Below are positions 19,070 to 24,209 of a DNA stretch of 30,577 nt, one piece after another. Where the stretch lies: the IMG/VR virus record IMGVR_UViG_3300025872_000206, positions 1-30,577 of that record; one strand, given 5' to 3'. The first letter of the stretch is position 1; every line of letters begins with the position of its first letter. Source of the stretch: a virus. The position numbers and the translations under genes are program-made. The notes under the pieces were generated by a model. It worked only from the letters and a program-made list of their open reading frames with translations, was not told the DNA's origin and did not search any database.

Positions 19070-19287
19070 AAATTGTACAAGACCTACCAGACATGGGCTT
19101 GTGTGATCCAGCTAAGTATGAAATAAATATCAGAGATGGTATGAATTCTCAGGCAACGCTGGCTACATTTTTCCATGAGCTTGTTCATGCTATTAAATTT
19201 GTAATGGGGGAGACAGATCATAACGAAAAAGAAGTTGAAGGGTTTGGAAACCTCTTACACCAATGGCTTATTACGCTTAAGCTATAA
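18994..19287 (+). CDS. Small HExxH metallopeptidase-like protein
   Basis: 97 residues starting MAKKTAPAALGIPTSFQLAG, with GGGAGA 7-8 nt upstream, so the long overlap with the exonuclease is probably real. The block ATLATFFHELVHAIKFVMG contains HExxH (H61, E62, H65), the zinc motif of gluzincin-type peptidases. EKEVEGFGNLLHQWL follows and may give a third ligand (E80 or E82). It resembles ImmA/SprT-like folds in size and layout, but no certain family is recognised. The substrate is unknown. It may process a phage or host protein early in infection. Confidence 0.65.
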   Translation: MAKKTAPAALGIPTSFQLAGCTWSVKIVQDLPDMGLCDPAKYEINIRDGMNSQATLATFFHELVHAIKFVMGETDHNEKEVEGFGNLLHQWLITLKL

Positions 19288-19651
19288 CGACAGCGAGTGG
19301 ACACCGGCTAGGTTTAAAAGCTTCATCATCTCAGCATTGCGTACAGCAACGAGGAGATGGCCTCCTAAGTTTAAAGCAATGAAGGAGGCTTGCATTGGAC
19401 GCAAGACAAATAAAGCAACAAACAAACTAGCCTATCATTACAAGTGTGCACATTGTAAAAAACTTTTTGTCGCTAAAGACATACAAGTAGACCACATATT
19501 GCCTGTTGTTGATACGTCTGTTGGTTTCCAGGGATGGGACATCTTTATTAACAGGATGTTCTGTGAGAAAGAAAACTTACAGGTGCTGTGCAAGCCATGT
19601 CATTCTGTAAAGACACAGTTAGAAAAGGAAGAAAGGAAAAAGAATGGCTAA
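19235..19651 (+). CDS. HNH endonuclease (start uncertain)
   Basis: Up to 138 residues. The frame has no ATG near its 5' end; TTG at 19235 or 19244 is the possible start, and sequence typical of the family begins at RLSYNDSEWTPARFKSFI. The core shows YKCAHCKKLF, VDHILPVVD, and ENLQVLCKPCHSVKT: two CxxC pairs holding zinc around the HNH/beta-beta-alpha metal site. It may cut DNA for packaging, recombination or competition. It overlaps the HExxH gene by up to 53 nt and the next gene by 8. Confidence 0.8.
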   Translation: MKGLETSYTNGLLRLSYNDSEWTPARFKSFIISALRTATRRWPPKFKAMKEACIGRKTNKATNKLAYHYKCAHCKKLFVAKDIQVDHILPVVDTSVGFQGWDIFINRMFCEKENLQVLCKPCHSVKTQLEKEERKKNG

Positions 19652-19913
19652 GAAAGAAAAGGAACAATGGTATGTCTACCTCACCAGCTATTGGGTTCCA
19701 TTTCCTACATCAGAGTATGGAGGACTGCAAGCTGTAGTGGCTAGGAATGTAGAGGAAGCCATTGAGTTTTTAACAAAACACGCTTTCTCATGGGAGACAG
19801 CCAGCATCAAGGGAGCCGCAGAGCTAATTGAAGCAAAGCTTAAACGTGCTGTTGTGCTGGCATTGGCAGATCAATATGAGGAGCCATTCATTGCAAAGGA
19901 GTTTGTAACTTGA
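19644..19913 (+). CDS. Small phage protein, unknown function
   Basis: 89 residues: EQWYVYLTSYWVPFPTSEYGGLQAVVARNVEEAIEFLTKHAFSWETASIKGAAELIEAK. Beta-alpha-beta-alpha character is suggested by the WYVYL and EAIEFL blocks. It overlaps the HNH gene (8 nt) and thyX (TTGA), so all three are translated as a unit. Ribosome site GGAAGAAAGGAA. No known domain. Confidence 0.65.
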   Translation: MAKKEKEQWYVYLTSYWVPFPTSEYGGLQAVVARNVEEAIEFLTKHAFSWETASIKGAAELIEAKLKRAVVLALADQYEEPFIAKEFVT

Positions 19914-20539
19914 GGGTAGAACTTGTATGGAGCACACCATATGGAGAGGCTCTCATTGCTCAGATGGCTAGGGTGAGCAACCCAACAAACAAACACAACT
20001 CAGAGACAGCCTCTAAGCTTATTGCTTTTCTCATTAGAAATAAGCATTGGAGCCCATTTGAGATGGTGAATGTTTGTATGGAAATTGAAACAACAAGAGA
20101 CATTGCTCGTCAGATATTGAGACATAGAAGCTTTAGCTTTCAAGAGTTTTCCCAACGATATGCAAAGGTGACAAACATTGATGGCTTTAGTGAGGCAAGG
20201 CTACAGGACAAAGACAACAGACAGAATAGCCTGAAGACAGATGATGAATATCTGCGTAACTGGTGGAGGTATGCACAGGTAGGAGTTGCAGACCTTGCTG
20301 AGAAGTGGTATGATGAAGCCCTTGAGAAAGGAATTGCTAAAGAGGTGGCAAGAAAGCTCTTACCAGAGGGACTAACACAAAGCACCATGTACATGAATGG
20401 AACTTTGCGTAGCTGGCTGCACTACATTGACATTCGTTGTGACAAGGCCACTCAGAAGGAACACAGAGAAGTGGCAGAGCAATGCAAAGCTATAGTGTTT
20501 GAACAATTTCCTAGTGTTAAGGAAGCACTAGGTTACTAG
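19910..20539 (+). CDS. thyX: FAD-dependent thymidylate synthase ThyX
   Basis: 209 residues from a TTG start (TTGA overlap with the previous stop). The ThyX signature RHRxxSxxxxSxR is complete: R71 H72 R73, S76, S81, R83 (RHRSFSFQEFSQR). HWSPFEMV precedes it, and LLPEGLTQSTMYMNGTLRSWLHYIDIR follows, the FAD/dUMP-binding region. It methylates dUMP to dTMP using methylene-tetrahydrofolate and FADH2. With the RNR it supports phage DNA synthesis. The stop codon (20537-20539) lies inside motif site 6. Confidence 0.95.
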   Translation: MRVELVWSTPYGEALIAQMARVSNPTNKHNSETASKLIAFLIRNKHWSPFEMVNVCMEIETTRDIARQILRHRSFSFQEFSQRYAKVTNIDGFSEARLQDKDNRQNSLKTDDEYLRNWWRYAQVGVADLAEKWYDEALEKGIAKEVARKLLPEGLTQSTMYMNGTLRSWLHYIDIRCDKATQKEHREVAEQCKAIVFEQFPSVKEALGY

Positions 20540-20547
20540 CTAGTAAC
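20532..20547. promoter_or_regulatory. 16-bp dispersed motif, site 6 (GTTACTAGCTAGTAAC)
   Basis: Perfect palindrome spanning the thyX stop codon, directly upstream of the homing endonuclease. Identical to site 7. Confidence 0.8.
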
Positions 20548-20572
20548 CAATGCTTTATGTAGAAAGTTCACA

Positions 20573-21127
20573 ATGAAAGAAGAGTGGAAAGATGTTAAAG
20601 GTTTTGAAAATTACTTTGAAGTTTCTAACTTAGGTGCTGTTAAAAGTAAAAGAACAAACAAAGTTCTTAAACAGCACATACGAAAAAATGGTTACTGCAC
20701 AATAGCTACACAAATTGGTGGAAGAAAAGGAAAGCACGTATGTTTTAAAGTTCATAGACTTGTTGCTGATGCTTTTTTACCTGCTCCTTCTATTGATATT
20801 GTTTCTGCTAGTCTCAATACTTTTTACAAAAAAGTTATTGTTAATCACAAAGATGGAAACAAACAGAACAATAGTGTAGAAAATCTTGAGTGGTCTACAT
20901 ATAAAGATAATACTATACACGCATGGCAAAATAAACTTAAAACAAAAAAATATGGAATAGATAACCCCGCATCTTTCTTCAAATCTGAAAAGCAAAGAGA
21001 AAAAGCATTTAAAAACTTTCTTATCTCTGGTCTTTCTATGAGAAAATATGCAAAACAAATTGGAACAACTCATTACACTGTTTCAAGACTTATAAAACAT
21101 TACACCTCTGGTTCGTATAATGGATAA
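20573..21127 (+). CDS. NUMOD4 HNH homing endonuclease
   Basis: 184 residues. An N-terminal NUMOD4 module (EEWKDVKGFENYFEVSNLGAVKSK, about 3-26) is followed by the HNH core: VHRLVADAF (H61), VNHKDGNKQNN (N91, H92) and VENLEWSTYKDN (N104-W107). The C-terminal helices (ISGLSMRKYAKQIGTTHYTVSRLIKHY) form a helix-turn-helix DNA-reading tail. It is clearly more AT-rich than its neighbours, with AAA/AAT/TTT-rich codons, consistent with recent arrival as a free-standing selfish gene. Weak ribosome site. The last 22 bases run into the tRNA gene. Confidence 0.88.
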   Translation: MKEEWKDVKGFENYFEVSNLGAVKSKRTNKVLKQHIRKNGYCTIATQIGGRKGKHVCFKVHRLVADAFLPAPSIDIVSASLNTFYKKVIVNHKDGNKQNNSVENLEWSTYKDNTIHAWQNKLKTKKYGIDNPASFFKSEKQREKAFKNFLISGLSMRKYAKQIGTTHYTVSRLIKHYTSGSYNG

Positions 21128-21180
21128 TACAGTGCTCTTCTAAAGCACGAATGCATGTTCGACTCATGCACCAGAGACCA
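21106..21180 (+). tRNA. tRNA-Arg (anticodon UCU)
   Basis: Full cloverleaf: acceptor CTCTGGT/ACCAGAG, D-arm GTAT/ATAC, anticodon stem GTGCT/AGCAC with loop CTTCTAA (anticodon TCT), T-arm GCATG/CATGC with loop TTCGACT, discriminator A and encoded CCA. It decodes AGA and AGG, codons used freely by neighbouring genes. Its first 22 bases are the end of the homing endonuclease gene. Confidence 0.92.
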
Positions 21181-21192
21181 AGAAAGGAACAT

Positions 21193-21384
21193 ATGGAAAA
21201 TAAAATAATGTGGAAATTTACACGCATCAACCAAGAGGTAGGAATACAAAACGATTTAGCAGTTGTTCTTCCTTCTGGAATTCCGTGGACAGAAGTGCTG
21301 GAACATTTTGCTGCTTTTCTAGAGGGCTGCACATATGCTGGTGTGCATAACATCTTAGACAAGAAAGGAGTGTTTGAGAAATGA
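21193..21384 (+). CDS. Small protein, unknown function
   Basis: 63 residues from ATG 21193 (AAAGGAAC upstream; in-frame ATG 21151 would lie in the tRNA). MENKIMWKFTRINQEVGIQN-DLAVVLPSGIPWTEVLEHFAAFLEGC shows a strand then an amphipathic helix. It overlaps the phosphoesterase gene by 4 nt. No domain known. Confidence 0.6.
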   Translation: MENKIMWKFTRINQEVGIQNDLAVVLPSGIPWTEVLEHFAAFLEGCTYAGVHNILDKKGVFEK

Positions 21385-22148
21385 AGCACCTCATCATTCC
21401 TGACACACAATGTAAACCGGGGCACAGCTTTGAACACCTCTCTTGGGTGGGCAAGTATGCAGCAGAGAAGAAGCCAGATGTCATTGTCCATCTAGGAGAC
21501 CATTGGGATATGCCCTCCTTGTCCATCTATGACATAGGCAAGAAGAGCTTTGAAGGACGCACCTACAAGGAAGACATTGAGGCAGGCAAGGCAGGCATGG
21601 AAGCTTTGCTTGCCCCCATCAAGGCAGAACAGAAACGCTTGAGGGATAACAAGCACAAGCAATGGAAGCCACGCATGGTGTTCCTCATTGGCAACCACGA
21701 GGAGCGCATTGAACGGGCTATAGAGAGCGACAGAAAACTAGAAGGACTAATTGGATATAATGATTTCAAGCTTAAAGAAACTGGATGGGAAACATATCCT
21801 TTTTTACAGCCTATTGTTATCAATGGCGTTGCTTATTGTCACTACTTTACTTCTGGGGTTATGGGGAGACCAGTTAGCTCCCCTACTCTGTTGCTCACAA
21901 AAAAGCATATGAGTTGTGTTATGGGGCACGTTCAAGACAGGGGCATTGCCTTTGCTAAACGAGCAGATGGGAAGCGTATGACAGGGCTCTTTGCTGGTAT
22001 TTGTTATCAACATGATGAAGACTATCTGTCCCCACAAACCAACGGCTCATGGTCAGGTGTATGGATGCTCAACGAGGTGGATGATGGAGCCTTTGATGAG
22101 ATGCCTGTAAGCCTGACATATTTGAAGAAGAAGTATAAGGAGGCATAA
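21381..22148 (+). CDS. Metallophosphoesterase
   Basis: 255 residues. Calcineurin-type motifs: IIPDTQ (D8; the usual DxH is DxQ here), VHLGDHWD (D40, D43), LIGNHEER (N105, H106), CHYF (H154) and GHVQ (H183). The DTQCKPG and GDHWDMPSLS..YD..KKSFEGR blocks are those of a phage subfamily (recollection). It hydrolyses phosphomono- or diesters with two metals; the substrate is not predictable. It could act on nucleotides, DNA ends or cyclic nucleotides. ATGA overlap at the start, one-base overlap with the next gene. Confidence 0.85.
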   Translation: MKHLIIPDTQCKPGHSFEHLSWVGKYAAEKKPDVIVHLGDHWDMPSLSIYDIGKKSFEGRTYKEDIEAGKAGMEALLAPIKAEQKRLRDNKHKQWKPRMVFLIGNHEERIERAIESDRKLEGLIGYNDFKLKETGWETYPFLQPIVINGVAYCHYFTSGVMGRPVSSPTLLLTKKHMSCVMGHVQDRGIAFAKRADGKRMTGLFAGICYQHDEDYLSPQTNGSWSGVWMLNEVDDGAFDEMPVSLTYLKKKYKEA

Positions 22149-22309
22149 TGGCTCTCACCCTTATCGACATAGCTGACTTGCTAAAAAGACAAGACTGTGT
22201 TACAATATTAGAACTGTTAGATGTTAATGAAGATGAGCTTGTCGATAGGTTTATGGATAAGCTAGAAGAAAAAGCTGATTTTTTAGAAAGGGAACTGGAT
22301 GAGCTATGA
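22148..22309 (+). CDS. 53-residue acidic helical protein
   Basis: Sequence MALTLIDIADLLKRQDCVTI then LELLDVNEDELVDRFMDKLEEKADFLERELDEL. Two helices with a DELVDRF / EEKADFLERE repeat-like acidic pattern. Start overlaps the phosphoesterase stop; the end overlaps the RNR start by 11 nt. AAGGAGG is upstream. Function unknown; a fold as a small three-helix adaptor is conceivable. Confidence 0.65.
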   Translation: MALTLIDIADLLKRQDCVTILELLDVNEDELVDRFMDKLEEKADFLERELDEL

Positions 22310-24209
22310 AACACCGTGGAGCACTGTTGGCTACCTTACATATAAGCGCACCTATTCACGCCGCTTAGACGAAACTTCTCCCAATAGTCCGACAGAAGAA
22401 TTTGAGGATACAATTGATAGAGTGGTGAATGCTGCAAACAATCAACTGTCTTGTGGCTTCTCGTATGGAGAACAGAAACGCCTCAAGAAATACTTGATGG
22501 AACTAAAGGGGACAGTTGCTGGACGTTTCTTGTGGCAGCTAGGTACTCCCACAGTGGACAAGCTTGGTTTGTCTAGCCTGCAAAACTGTGCCTTCACTGT
22601 TGTTGACAAACCTGTTGAGCCTTTCATTTGGGCTATGGACTTGTTGATGCTGGGCTCAGGAGTGGGCTATAACATTCAGCGAACTAACGTAGAAAAGCTT
22701 CCTCCTGTGAATGCTGAGTTTAAGACACCAACTCGTTCAGACACAGATGATGCCGACTTCATTGTTCCTGACAGCAGAGAGGGCTGGGTGAGGCTGCTTG
22801 GCAAGACGCTTAAAGCAGCCTTCCTTGCTCACGAAAGCGGAAGACAAACCTTCACCTATAGCACCAAGCTTATTCGCTCCAAAGGGGCTCCTATCAAGGG
22901 CTTTGGTGGTGTAGCTTCTGGGTCAGAAGACTTGGTGTGGGGCATCTCTAAGATTGGTGAGATATTGGAGAAGAGAGCAGGCAAGAAGCTGCGTCCTGTT
23001 GATTGTCTTGATGTGATGAACATCATTGGTGCTATTGTTGTGGCTGGTAATGTTAGACGCTCTGCTCAAATTGCCATTGGAGATGCTGACGATGTGGAAT
23101 ATTTGCTTGCTAAACGATGGGACTTGGGAAATATCCCCTCATGGAGAGACAAGTCCAACAACAGCGTGGTTTGTAATGACATTGGAGATTTGCATGAGTT
23201 CTTCTGGGATGGATATGAGGGTAAGGGAGAGCCGTATGGCCTCATCAACCTTAAGCTGTCTCGAAAGGTGGGGCGTTTGGGAGACACCAACTACCCTGAC
23301 CCGGAAGTACAAGGATATAACCCCTGTGCAGAACAGAGCCTAGCTGATAAAGAAACCTGCTGCCTTGCTGAAATATTCCTACCTAACATCAAGAGTAAGG
23401 AAGAGATGCTTGATGTGGCTAAGCTTCTCTATCGTGTTAACAAACACAGCCTTGCCTTGAAGTGTCACCTCAAGAGCACAGAAGCCATTGTTAACAAGAA
23501 CATGAGGATGGGCATTGGTGTAACTGGTGTGCTGCAAGCAACAGAGGAACAGAAGAGTTGGCTCAAGGATGTGTATGAACAGCTACGGGAATATGACAAG
23601 AGCTATTCTGCACAGCATGGCTTTCCTGAGAGCATTAAGCTGACAACAGTGAAGCCCTCTGGTACACTTAGCTTGCTTTCTGGTGTCACCCCTGGTGCTC
23701 ACCCTGCTTATGCTCGTTATATGATTCGGCGTATTCGCATTGCAAGCAACCATTCATTGGTGCAGGTTTGTAAAGATCATGGCTACCATGTGGAATATCA
23801 GCAAAACTTTGATGGGACAGAAGACCACTCAACTGTTGTTGTTAGCTTTCCCTTTAGCCACCCTGAGACAGCCAAGCTTGCTAAGGATATGACAGCCATT
23901 GACCAGCTAGAGGTGGTGAAGTGGCTTCAAGAAGTGTGGAGTGATAACAGCGTAAGCTGCACCGTCTACTACAGGAAGGAAGAGCTTAATGATATTAAGA
24001 AATATCTCAAGAAACATTACAAGAACAATCACAAGAGCTTGTCGTTTTTGTTACATAGTGAGCATGGTTTCAAGCAAGCGCCTCTGGAGGAAATTACGAA
24101 AGAGGAATATGACAATATGGTGAAAGCCACTAAGCTCATCACTCAGATTGACGAGGCTAACATTGGCCTAGAAGATGAGTGTGCAACTGGTGCTTGCCCT
24201 ATCCGGTAG
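22299..24209 (+). CDS. nrdJ: Class II (B12-dependent) ribonucleoside-triphosphate reductase
   Basis: 636 residues. It carries the monomeric class II set: NCAF (C97) and C354 as the active-site redox pair, NPCAE with the thiyl-radical Cys (C343) and Glu (E345), and a C-terminal CATGAC (C628, C633) for reduction by thioredoxin. Other hallmarks are MLGSGVGYNIQ, AGNVRRSAQIAIGD and VKPSGTLSLLSG. It converts NTPs to dNTPs using adenosylcobalamin and needs no small subunit, so it works with or without oxygen if the host makes or imports B12. Slightly shorter than Lactobacillus RTPR (739). It overlaps the upstream gene by 11 nt and is the last large gene of the operon. Confidence 0.95.
   Translation: MSYETPWSTVGYLTYKRTYSRRLDETSPNSPTEEFEDTIDRVVNAANNQLSCGFSYGEQKRLKKYLMELKGTVAGRFLWQLGTPTVDKLGLSSLQNCAFTVVDKPVEPFIWAMDLLMLGSGVGYNIQRTNVEKLPPVNAEFKTPTRSDTDDADFIVPDSREGWVRLLGKTLKAAFLAHESGRQTFTYSTKLIRSKGAPIKGFGGVASGSEDLVWGISKIGEILEKRAGKKLRPVDCLDVMNIIGAIVVAGNVRRSAQIAIGDADDVEYLLAKRWDLGNIPSWRDKSNNSVVCNDIGDLHEFFWDGYEGKGEPYGLINLKLSRKVGRLGDTNYPDPEVQGYNPCAEQSLADKETCCLAEIFLPNIKSKEEMLDVAKLLYRVNKHSLALKCHLKSTEAIVNKNMRMGIGVTGVLQATEEQKSWLKDVYEQLREYDKSYSAQHGFPESIKLTTVKPSGTLSLLSGVTPGAHPAYARYMIRRIRIASNHSLVQVCKDHGYHVEYQQNFDGTEDHSTVVVSFPFSHPETAKLAKDMTAIDQLEVVKWLQEVWSDNSVSCTVYYRKEELNDIKKYLKKHYKNNHKSLSFLLHSEHGFKQAPLEEITKEEYDNMVKATKLITQIDEANIGLEDECATGACPIR

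Follow-up and report, generated by a model that had tools for sequence, protein, structure and literature searches.

A free-standing NUMOD4-HNH gene with its own tRNA-Arg(UCU) in the place of a resident phage tRNA-Arg(UCU)

Comparison of sibling phage contigs shows, at the level of sequence, that a single resident tRNA-Arg(UCU) was replaced, end to end, by a NUMOD4-HNH gene and the tRNA-Arg(UCU) that accompanies it. The DNA analyzed, hereafter the window, is the full 30,577-nt stretch of IMG/VR record IMGVR_UViG_3300025872_000206, a tailed-phage contig with genes for terminase, portal, DNA polymerase, ThyX, and ribonucleotide reductase. We favor, with moderate confidence, the interpretation that the encoded protein is a free-standing homing nuclease whose targets are tRNA genes, and that it spreads as a cassette consisting of the nuclease and a replacement tRNA.

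Replacement of the resident tRNA-Arg(UCU)

The features of the locus, in window coordinates, are as follows:

19910..20539, + strand: thyX, the conserved upstream neighbor (Pfam PF02511, E 1.6e-43)
20531..20548, no strand: perfect 18-bp palindrome, a dispersed copy that flanks the cassette and lies outside it
20548..20554, no strand: left junction with the empty allele (alignment of siblings)
20573..21127, + strand: NUMOD4-HNH homing-endonuclease gene (ATG start, 184 aa; its final 22 nt fall within the tRNA)
20579..20704, + strand: NUMOD4 DNA-binding motif, residues 3-44 (Pfam PF07463, E 1.2e-14)
20825..20911, + strand: HNH_3 nuclease motif, residues 85-113, with the conserved NHKDGNK..N...LEW core (Pfam PF13392, E 8.2e-9; alignments)
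20984..21112, + strand: probable helix-turn-helix, residues 138-180 (HTH_23, E 0.0034; 17.6 bits, below the Pfam cut-off of 24.6)
21106..21180, + strand: incoming tRNA-Arg(UCU), CCA encoded (ARAGORN; Rfam RF00005)
21106..21127, + strand: 22-nt overlap of nuclease gene and tRNA, comprising six C-terminal codons and the TAA stop (coordinates, translation)
21177..21180, no strand: right junction; from the discriminator base of the tRNA onward (ACCA), the sequence again matches the empty allele
21193..21384, + strand: small ORF, the downstream neighbor in the closest relatives
21381..22148, + strand: metallophosphoesterase gene, the conserved downstream neighbor (domain searches, relatives)

The order thyX, tRNA-Arg(UCU), metallophosphoesterase is kept in relatives, with the tRNA missing from some, and the 39-40 kb contigs of the group each carry one tRNA or none. 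The HNH gene is missing from two siblings, L162 and L202, whose tRNA-Arg(UCU) in the same slot is a different one, 56% identical to that of the window. Over the aligned flanks, identity is 98.7-99.1% on the left and 98.0-98.6% on the right. Alignment of the left flank stops at 20553, among the first bases of the resident tRNA, to which there is a 4-nt ATGC match at 20550-20553. Because the tRNAs differ this strongly between nearly identical flanks, and because the breakpoints fall at the tRNA ends, the tRNA was exchanged together with the HNH gene.

The initial annotation had proposed comparing relatives that lack the HNH gene, and the empty allele was indeed found in these two siblings. It had also read the gene as having inserted beside the tRNA or captured its edge. 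Use of a pre-existing tRNA edge as a stop codon does occur in the homologue group, as the tRNA downstream shows little or no change in phages nepoznato (100% identity), Ro1 (97%), and AsFcp_4 (99%). In the window, however, the tRNA is not the pre-existing one, and the sibling comparison rules out a simple insertion next to it, leaving this account very improbable here.

More distant tRNA-bearing relatives carry the resident tRNA type and no HNH gene, and the state of the window is therefore the derived one. Presence of the HNH gene is sporadic, with the empty allele in close relatives, and alignment shows the replacement in the window lineage to be recent. The same HNH and tRNA-Arg unit was found in one further contig, the only other carrier, which differs by 19 mismatches over 6.2 kb and makes an assembly chimera unlikely. 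To the left of the junction there are 9 differences in 150 nt compared to 0-1 on the right, a density equaled in 3-4% of windows, so that any signal of a co-conversion tract is weak, a point against the cassette interpretation. Searches for a donor returned only the same HNH-bearing contig for the exact tRNA pattern in viral contigs, weak partial matches for tRNA similarity among phages, and a best identity of 43% for the HNH protein against bacterial genomes; that these searches yielded no donor also weighs against the favored interpretation.

The nuclease, its overlap with the tRNA, and the homologue group

Judged by its domains, the window protein is of the I-HmuI-like NUMOD4-HNH kind, the product of a free-standing homing-endonuclease-type gene. 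The description of an AT-rich NUMOD4-HNH gene in the initial annotation was borne out, with a GC content of 30% for the gene compared to 45% for the whole window and both domains above their Pfam cut-offs. The protein matched phrog_59 and phrog_959 (HNH endonuclease), and no Pfam match to a GIY-YIG domain was obtained. The closest solved relative is I-HmuI (structure 1u3e), aligned over the NUMOD4-HNH region (residues 4-115, E 4.7e-16), with an E of 2.2e-28 in profile comparison. The ORF is intact, and the HNH residues are conserved in alignments with both homologues and I-HmuI. The gene lies between thyX and the tRNA, outside any matched intron; an Rfam gathering search found no intron family at the locus, its sole match being the tRNA.

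Tools for tRNA detection agree that the tRNA is genuine (ARAGORN; Rfam, 56.7 bits against a gathering threshold of 29), and the 22-base overlap reported in the initial annotation proved exact, with tRNA bases encoding the last nuclease residues, S-G-S-Y-N-G, and the TAA stop. Homologous residues in the nuclease alignment extend almost to this tRNA-derived C-terminal end. Overlap with a downstream tRNA was observed for 6 of 16 close homologues, while sampled regions with tRNA clusters contained no such case among 21 non-HNH ORFs (Fisher P 0.003), so that chance packing is an unlikely cause, although stops near a tRNA are common among the short ORFs of these clusters, 6 of 21 of which end at -30 to +20 of one.

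Full-length homologues from GenBank phages were ranked by score, without regard to neighborhood, and the best were taken; all those examined adjoin tRNAs. Of 16 proteins scoring 207 bits or above with a group profile, among the matches listed, 15 have tRNA neighbors; 12 of the 16 had served to train the profile, chosen without regard to tRNAs, and the untrained members L274, L362, and L363 agree. Below 207 bits the association weakens. The listed matches of the profile scan are mostly HNH proteins outside the group. Ten of the 16 stop at -22 to +18 nt of a downstream tRNA, with varied isotypes, and six overlap it (negative distances, in nt):

Window: -22 (Arg)
Ro1: -15 (Glu)
nepoznato: -10 (Pro)
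SCTP-2: -10 (Pro)
J2-1: -2 (Trp)
Ci1: -2 (Trp)
Prophecy: +1 (Arg)
L274: +4 (Gly)
AsFcp_4: +8 (Phe)
L362: +18 (Met)

The tRNA instead lies upstream of the homologue in UB, Aci05, Ab15, R16F, and L363. In a 95-protein tree, the tRNA label changes 6 times compared to a shuffle mean of 16.6, with 0 of 500 shuffles as low, a test in which sampling differs between the two protein collections and may inflate the tRNA signal. One 22-row branch, with modest support (SH-aLRT 86), holds 17 of the 18 tRNA-labeled rows. Together, these comparisons of sequence and gene order show a group of I-HmuI-like homologues associated with tRNA genes.

Outside this group, the HNH gene Prophecy_0013 (L257 378-746) overlaps a tRNA-Pro by 10 nt, and an HNH gene of AM24 (L526 985-1401) stops 15 nt before a tRNA-Thr. 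The homologue in Raoultella phage Ro1 (L263 1501-2019), with a 15-nt overlap of a tRNA-Glu, is not annotated as a CDS in its GenBank record, probably reflecting annotation pipelines that suppress ORFs overlapping tRNAs. Nuclease genes of this kind may be under-reported, a point of caution for annotators.

tRNA turnover at nuclease sites and its possible causes

When nuclease-bearing phages were compared with nuclease-less relatives, the tRNA at the site was found to be swapped or lost in 7 of 8 comparisons. In all five cases with incoming tRNAs, a lost specificity is among them, a match that for Ab15 and UB rests partly on atypical tRNA-like genes read by eye. In the window, Arg(UCU) is out and a different Arg(UCU) is in. 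In Aci05 compared to Aci02-2 (98-99% identity), a Thr(UGU) was exchanged for another Thr(UGU) of 62% identity, while the other five tRNAs are 99-100% identical. Relative to R2096, Ab15 lacks an atypical Arg(UCU)-like gene, a Thr(UGU), and two further tRNA-like genes, and has gained Arg(UCU), Thr(UGU) (78%), and Met. In Ro1 compared to DP, one Gly(UCC) is replaced by another, in a region that is generally variable, and in UB compared to PBECO4 an Arg(UCU) has taken the place of two genes, one for Ser(UGA) and one Arg(UCU)-like. The tRNA-like genes of Acinetobacter phage R2096 (L524 980-1330) and Escherichia phage PBECO4 (L525 625-711) received no ARAGORN call; by eye, their acceptor, anticodon, and T arms are intact, the D arms are atypical or missing, and long extra segments are present.

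The remaining comparisons brought in no substitute tRNA. The HNH gene of nepoznato exactly replaces the tRNA-Gln of ECML-183-2, leaving the adjoining tRNA-Pro unchanged, and no match to the Gln tRNA was found elsewhere in the nepoznato genome. In AsFcp_4 compared to Ah1, a His tRNA and its upstream spacer are replaced, and no match to the lost tRNA was found elsewhere in AsFcp_4. These two losses run counter to spread as a cassette with a replacement tRNA, and suggest that loss of a tRNA is not always costly. Prophecy, compared to Rouille, has an insertion in a short spacer without tRNA loss, both neighbors being kept and Arg(UCU) showing 90% identity; this case, too, speaks against the cassette. 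The pair Ci1 and S13 is too diverged (~80%) for alleles to be judged. Taken together, the alignments show repeated displacement of tRNAs, as read from present-day sequences, at the sites of this nuclease group.

It is possible that these changes reflect ordinary mosaic recombination in a tRNA hot spot, with the HNH gene a passenger or dead relic and not the driver. Consistent with this, tRNA alleles also change where no nuclease is present, as for the Prophecy tRNA-Thr (L257 3880-3954; 63% identity to its counterpart) and the tRNA-Arg of L167 and L172 (87%, with a left flank of 96%), and this likewise counts against the cassette; such changes may be traces of past homing or independent exchange. 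Gly alleles also differ among HNH-less Mydovirus phages. The isotypes in the three single-gene swaps have a chance product of ~2.5e-4 given the isotype frequencies in these loci, but orthologous recombination would likewise keep the isotype. On the other hand, among the four cleanest pairs of cultured phages, 3 of 4 nuclease sites showed swap or loss compared to 1 of 37 elsewhere (P 0.0015), the ORF in the window is intact with conserved HNH residues, and the breakpoints lie at the ends of the replaced tRNA. We regard a passenger role as unlikely, although still deserving of weight.

A further alternative is that the new tRNA-Arg(UCU) is itself the selected cargo, either resisting a host tRNA-cutting defense or suiting a new host, and that the nuclease only aids its spread. 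Phage tRNAs can evade tRNA-targeting defenses (PMC10264068, PMC11555353), and amplification of a tRNA by SegB under Septu pressure is described in PMC13096335; moreover, the incoming tRNA differs over most of its length. However, the anticodon loop, CTTCTAA, is identical in the resident and incoming alleles, and neither nepoznato nor AsFcp_4 gained a tRNA. Selection on the cargo is, in our estimation, decidedly improbable as the main cause.

Under the favored interpretation, spread of a nuclease with a replacement tRNA, the events would unfold during mixed infection. The nuclease would nick or cut the HNH-less allele within the resident tRNA gene or next to it, and repair templated by the HNH-bearing genome would carry over the HNH gene along with the tRNA that adjoins it. 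Since the incoming tRNA shares its anticodon with the resident one yet differs from it in sequence, decoding would be kept while the target is destroyed, amounting to "cleave and rescue", and the incoming tRNA would presumably be immune to the nuclease. AGA is the most frequent Arg codon in the genes sampled from this phage (92 of 273), and retention of an AGA-reading tRNA would therefore be favored. Where the phage tRNA is dispensable and lost, the nuclease alone could take its place. Where the nuclease stop falls within the tRNA, a cut by RNase P at the 5' end of the tRNA would strip the nuclease message of its stop codon, which might act as a brake on expression. A broader version, in which the HNH group hits phage tRNA genes of any isotype as a cleave-and-rescue unit with RNase P maturation limiting the nuclease, is put forward only tentatively and seems to us rather doubtful.

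Relation to known systems and further observations at the locus

SegB, studied by Brok-Volchanskaya in 2008 (cited in PMC10448857), is reportedly a free-standing homing endonuclease encoded in the tRNA region of T-even phages (T4/T6). According to PMC2988022 and PMC13096335, it lies between phage tRNA genes and is tied to preferred inheritance of the tRNA region, and its homologues are enriched near tRNAs of many isotypes. For T6 SegB, SITE-seq placed breaks inside tRNA genes, with the motif RAWTSGAAC (PMC13096335), a precedent for the proposed attack on the resident tRNA gene. The reverse complement of this motif, GTTCSAWTY, resembles the tRNA T-loop consensus. The window nuclease is similar to SegB in setting, being free-standing and located at tRNA genes, but not in family: SegB is a GIY-YIG enzyme, whereas the window nuclease belongs to the NUMOD4-HNH kind. 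For SegB, the sections consulted describe neither replacement of a tRNA by one of matching specificity within the unit nor placement of the stop codon inside a tRNA, both of which are seen in the window.

I-HmuI is encoded in an intron of SPO1 and acts on a protein gene. The NUMOD4-HNH region of the window nuclease is similar to it by sequence; unlike I-HmuI, the window nuclease has no intron match, and its partner is a tRNA gene. The T4 Mob proteins are free-standing HNH enzymes encoded between phage genes, some Mob ORFs overlap the upstream neighbor gene, and the insertion sites listed are not tRNA genes (PMC2988022). Like Mob, the window nuclease is a free-standing HNH enzyme between phage genes, but it overlaps the downstream tRNA in place of an upstream ORF.

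In engineered cleave-and-rescue drives, a nuclease travels with a recoded version, resistant to cleavage, of the gene that it destroys. The likeness to the window cassette is one of logic only. The putative substitute for the displaced gene has the same anticodon and a good tRNA model; if the proposal is true, it would be a natural parallel to these drives. Nuclease-linked tRNA regions are known from SegB. No description of nuclease-linked, same-specificity tRNA replacement by HNH enzymes was found in the open-access literature searched. The locus would connect HNH enzymes with a function that has until now been ascribed to SegB, an unrelated nuclease.

Carriage and fast turnover of phage tRNAs are usually explained by codon usage or by escape from tRNA-cutting defenses. 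Selfish nucleases that replace tRNA genes, perhaps bringing substitutes, would be a third, testable cause, and the window and its siblings offer two almost identical alleles well suited to a cleavage assay.

A second HNH gene (window 19235-19651), two genes upstream, looks like a resident phage gene and not a sporadic homing gene because it is present in most relatives. The ribonucleotide reductase (window 22299-24209) is 77-99% identical in some relatives and ~27% in others, in which the adjoining metallophosphoesterase is still ~80% identical, suggesting at the sequence level that the reductase was replaced by another type.

Finally, the perfect 16-bp motif that the initial annotation had placed at 20532, before the HNH gene, is real, but it belongs to the 18-bp palindrome GGTTACTAGCTAGTAACC. 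Six copies of this palindrome and its variants occur in the window at up to 3 mismatches (8440, 11524, 16342, 18617, 20531, and 24516; 0.01 expected), in and between genes, and it is therefore not specific to the HNH gene. As a dispersed phage palindrome, it was ruled out as an insertion or target site. It was absent at the loci of three tRNA-less relatives, and is also located upstream of the resident tRNA in most of the tRNA-bearing, HNH-less relatives inspected; it is possibly an operator or promoter element.
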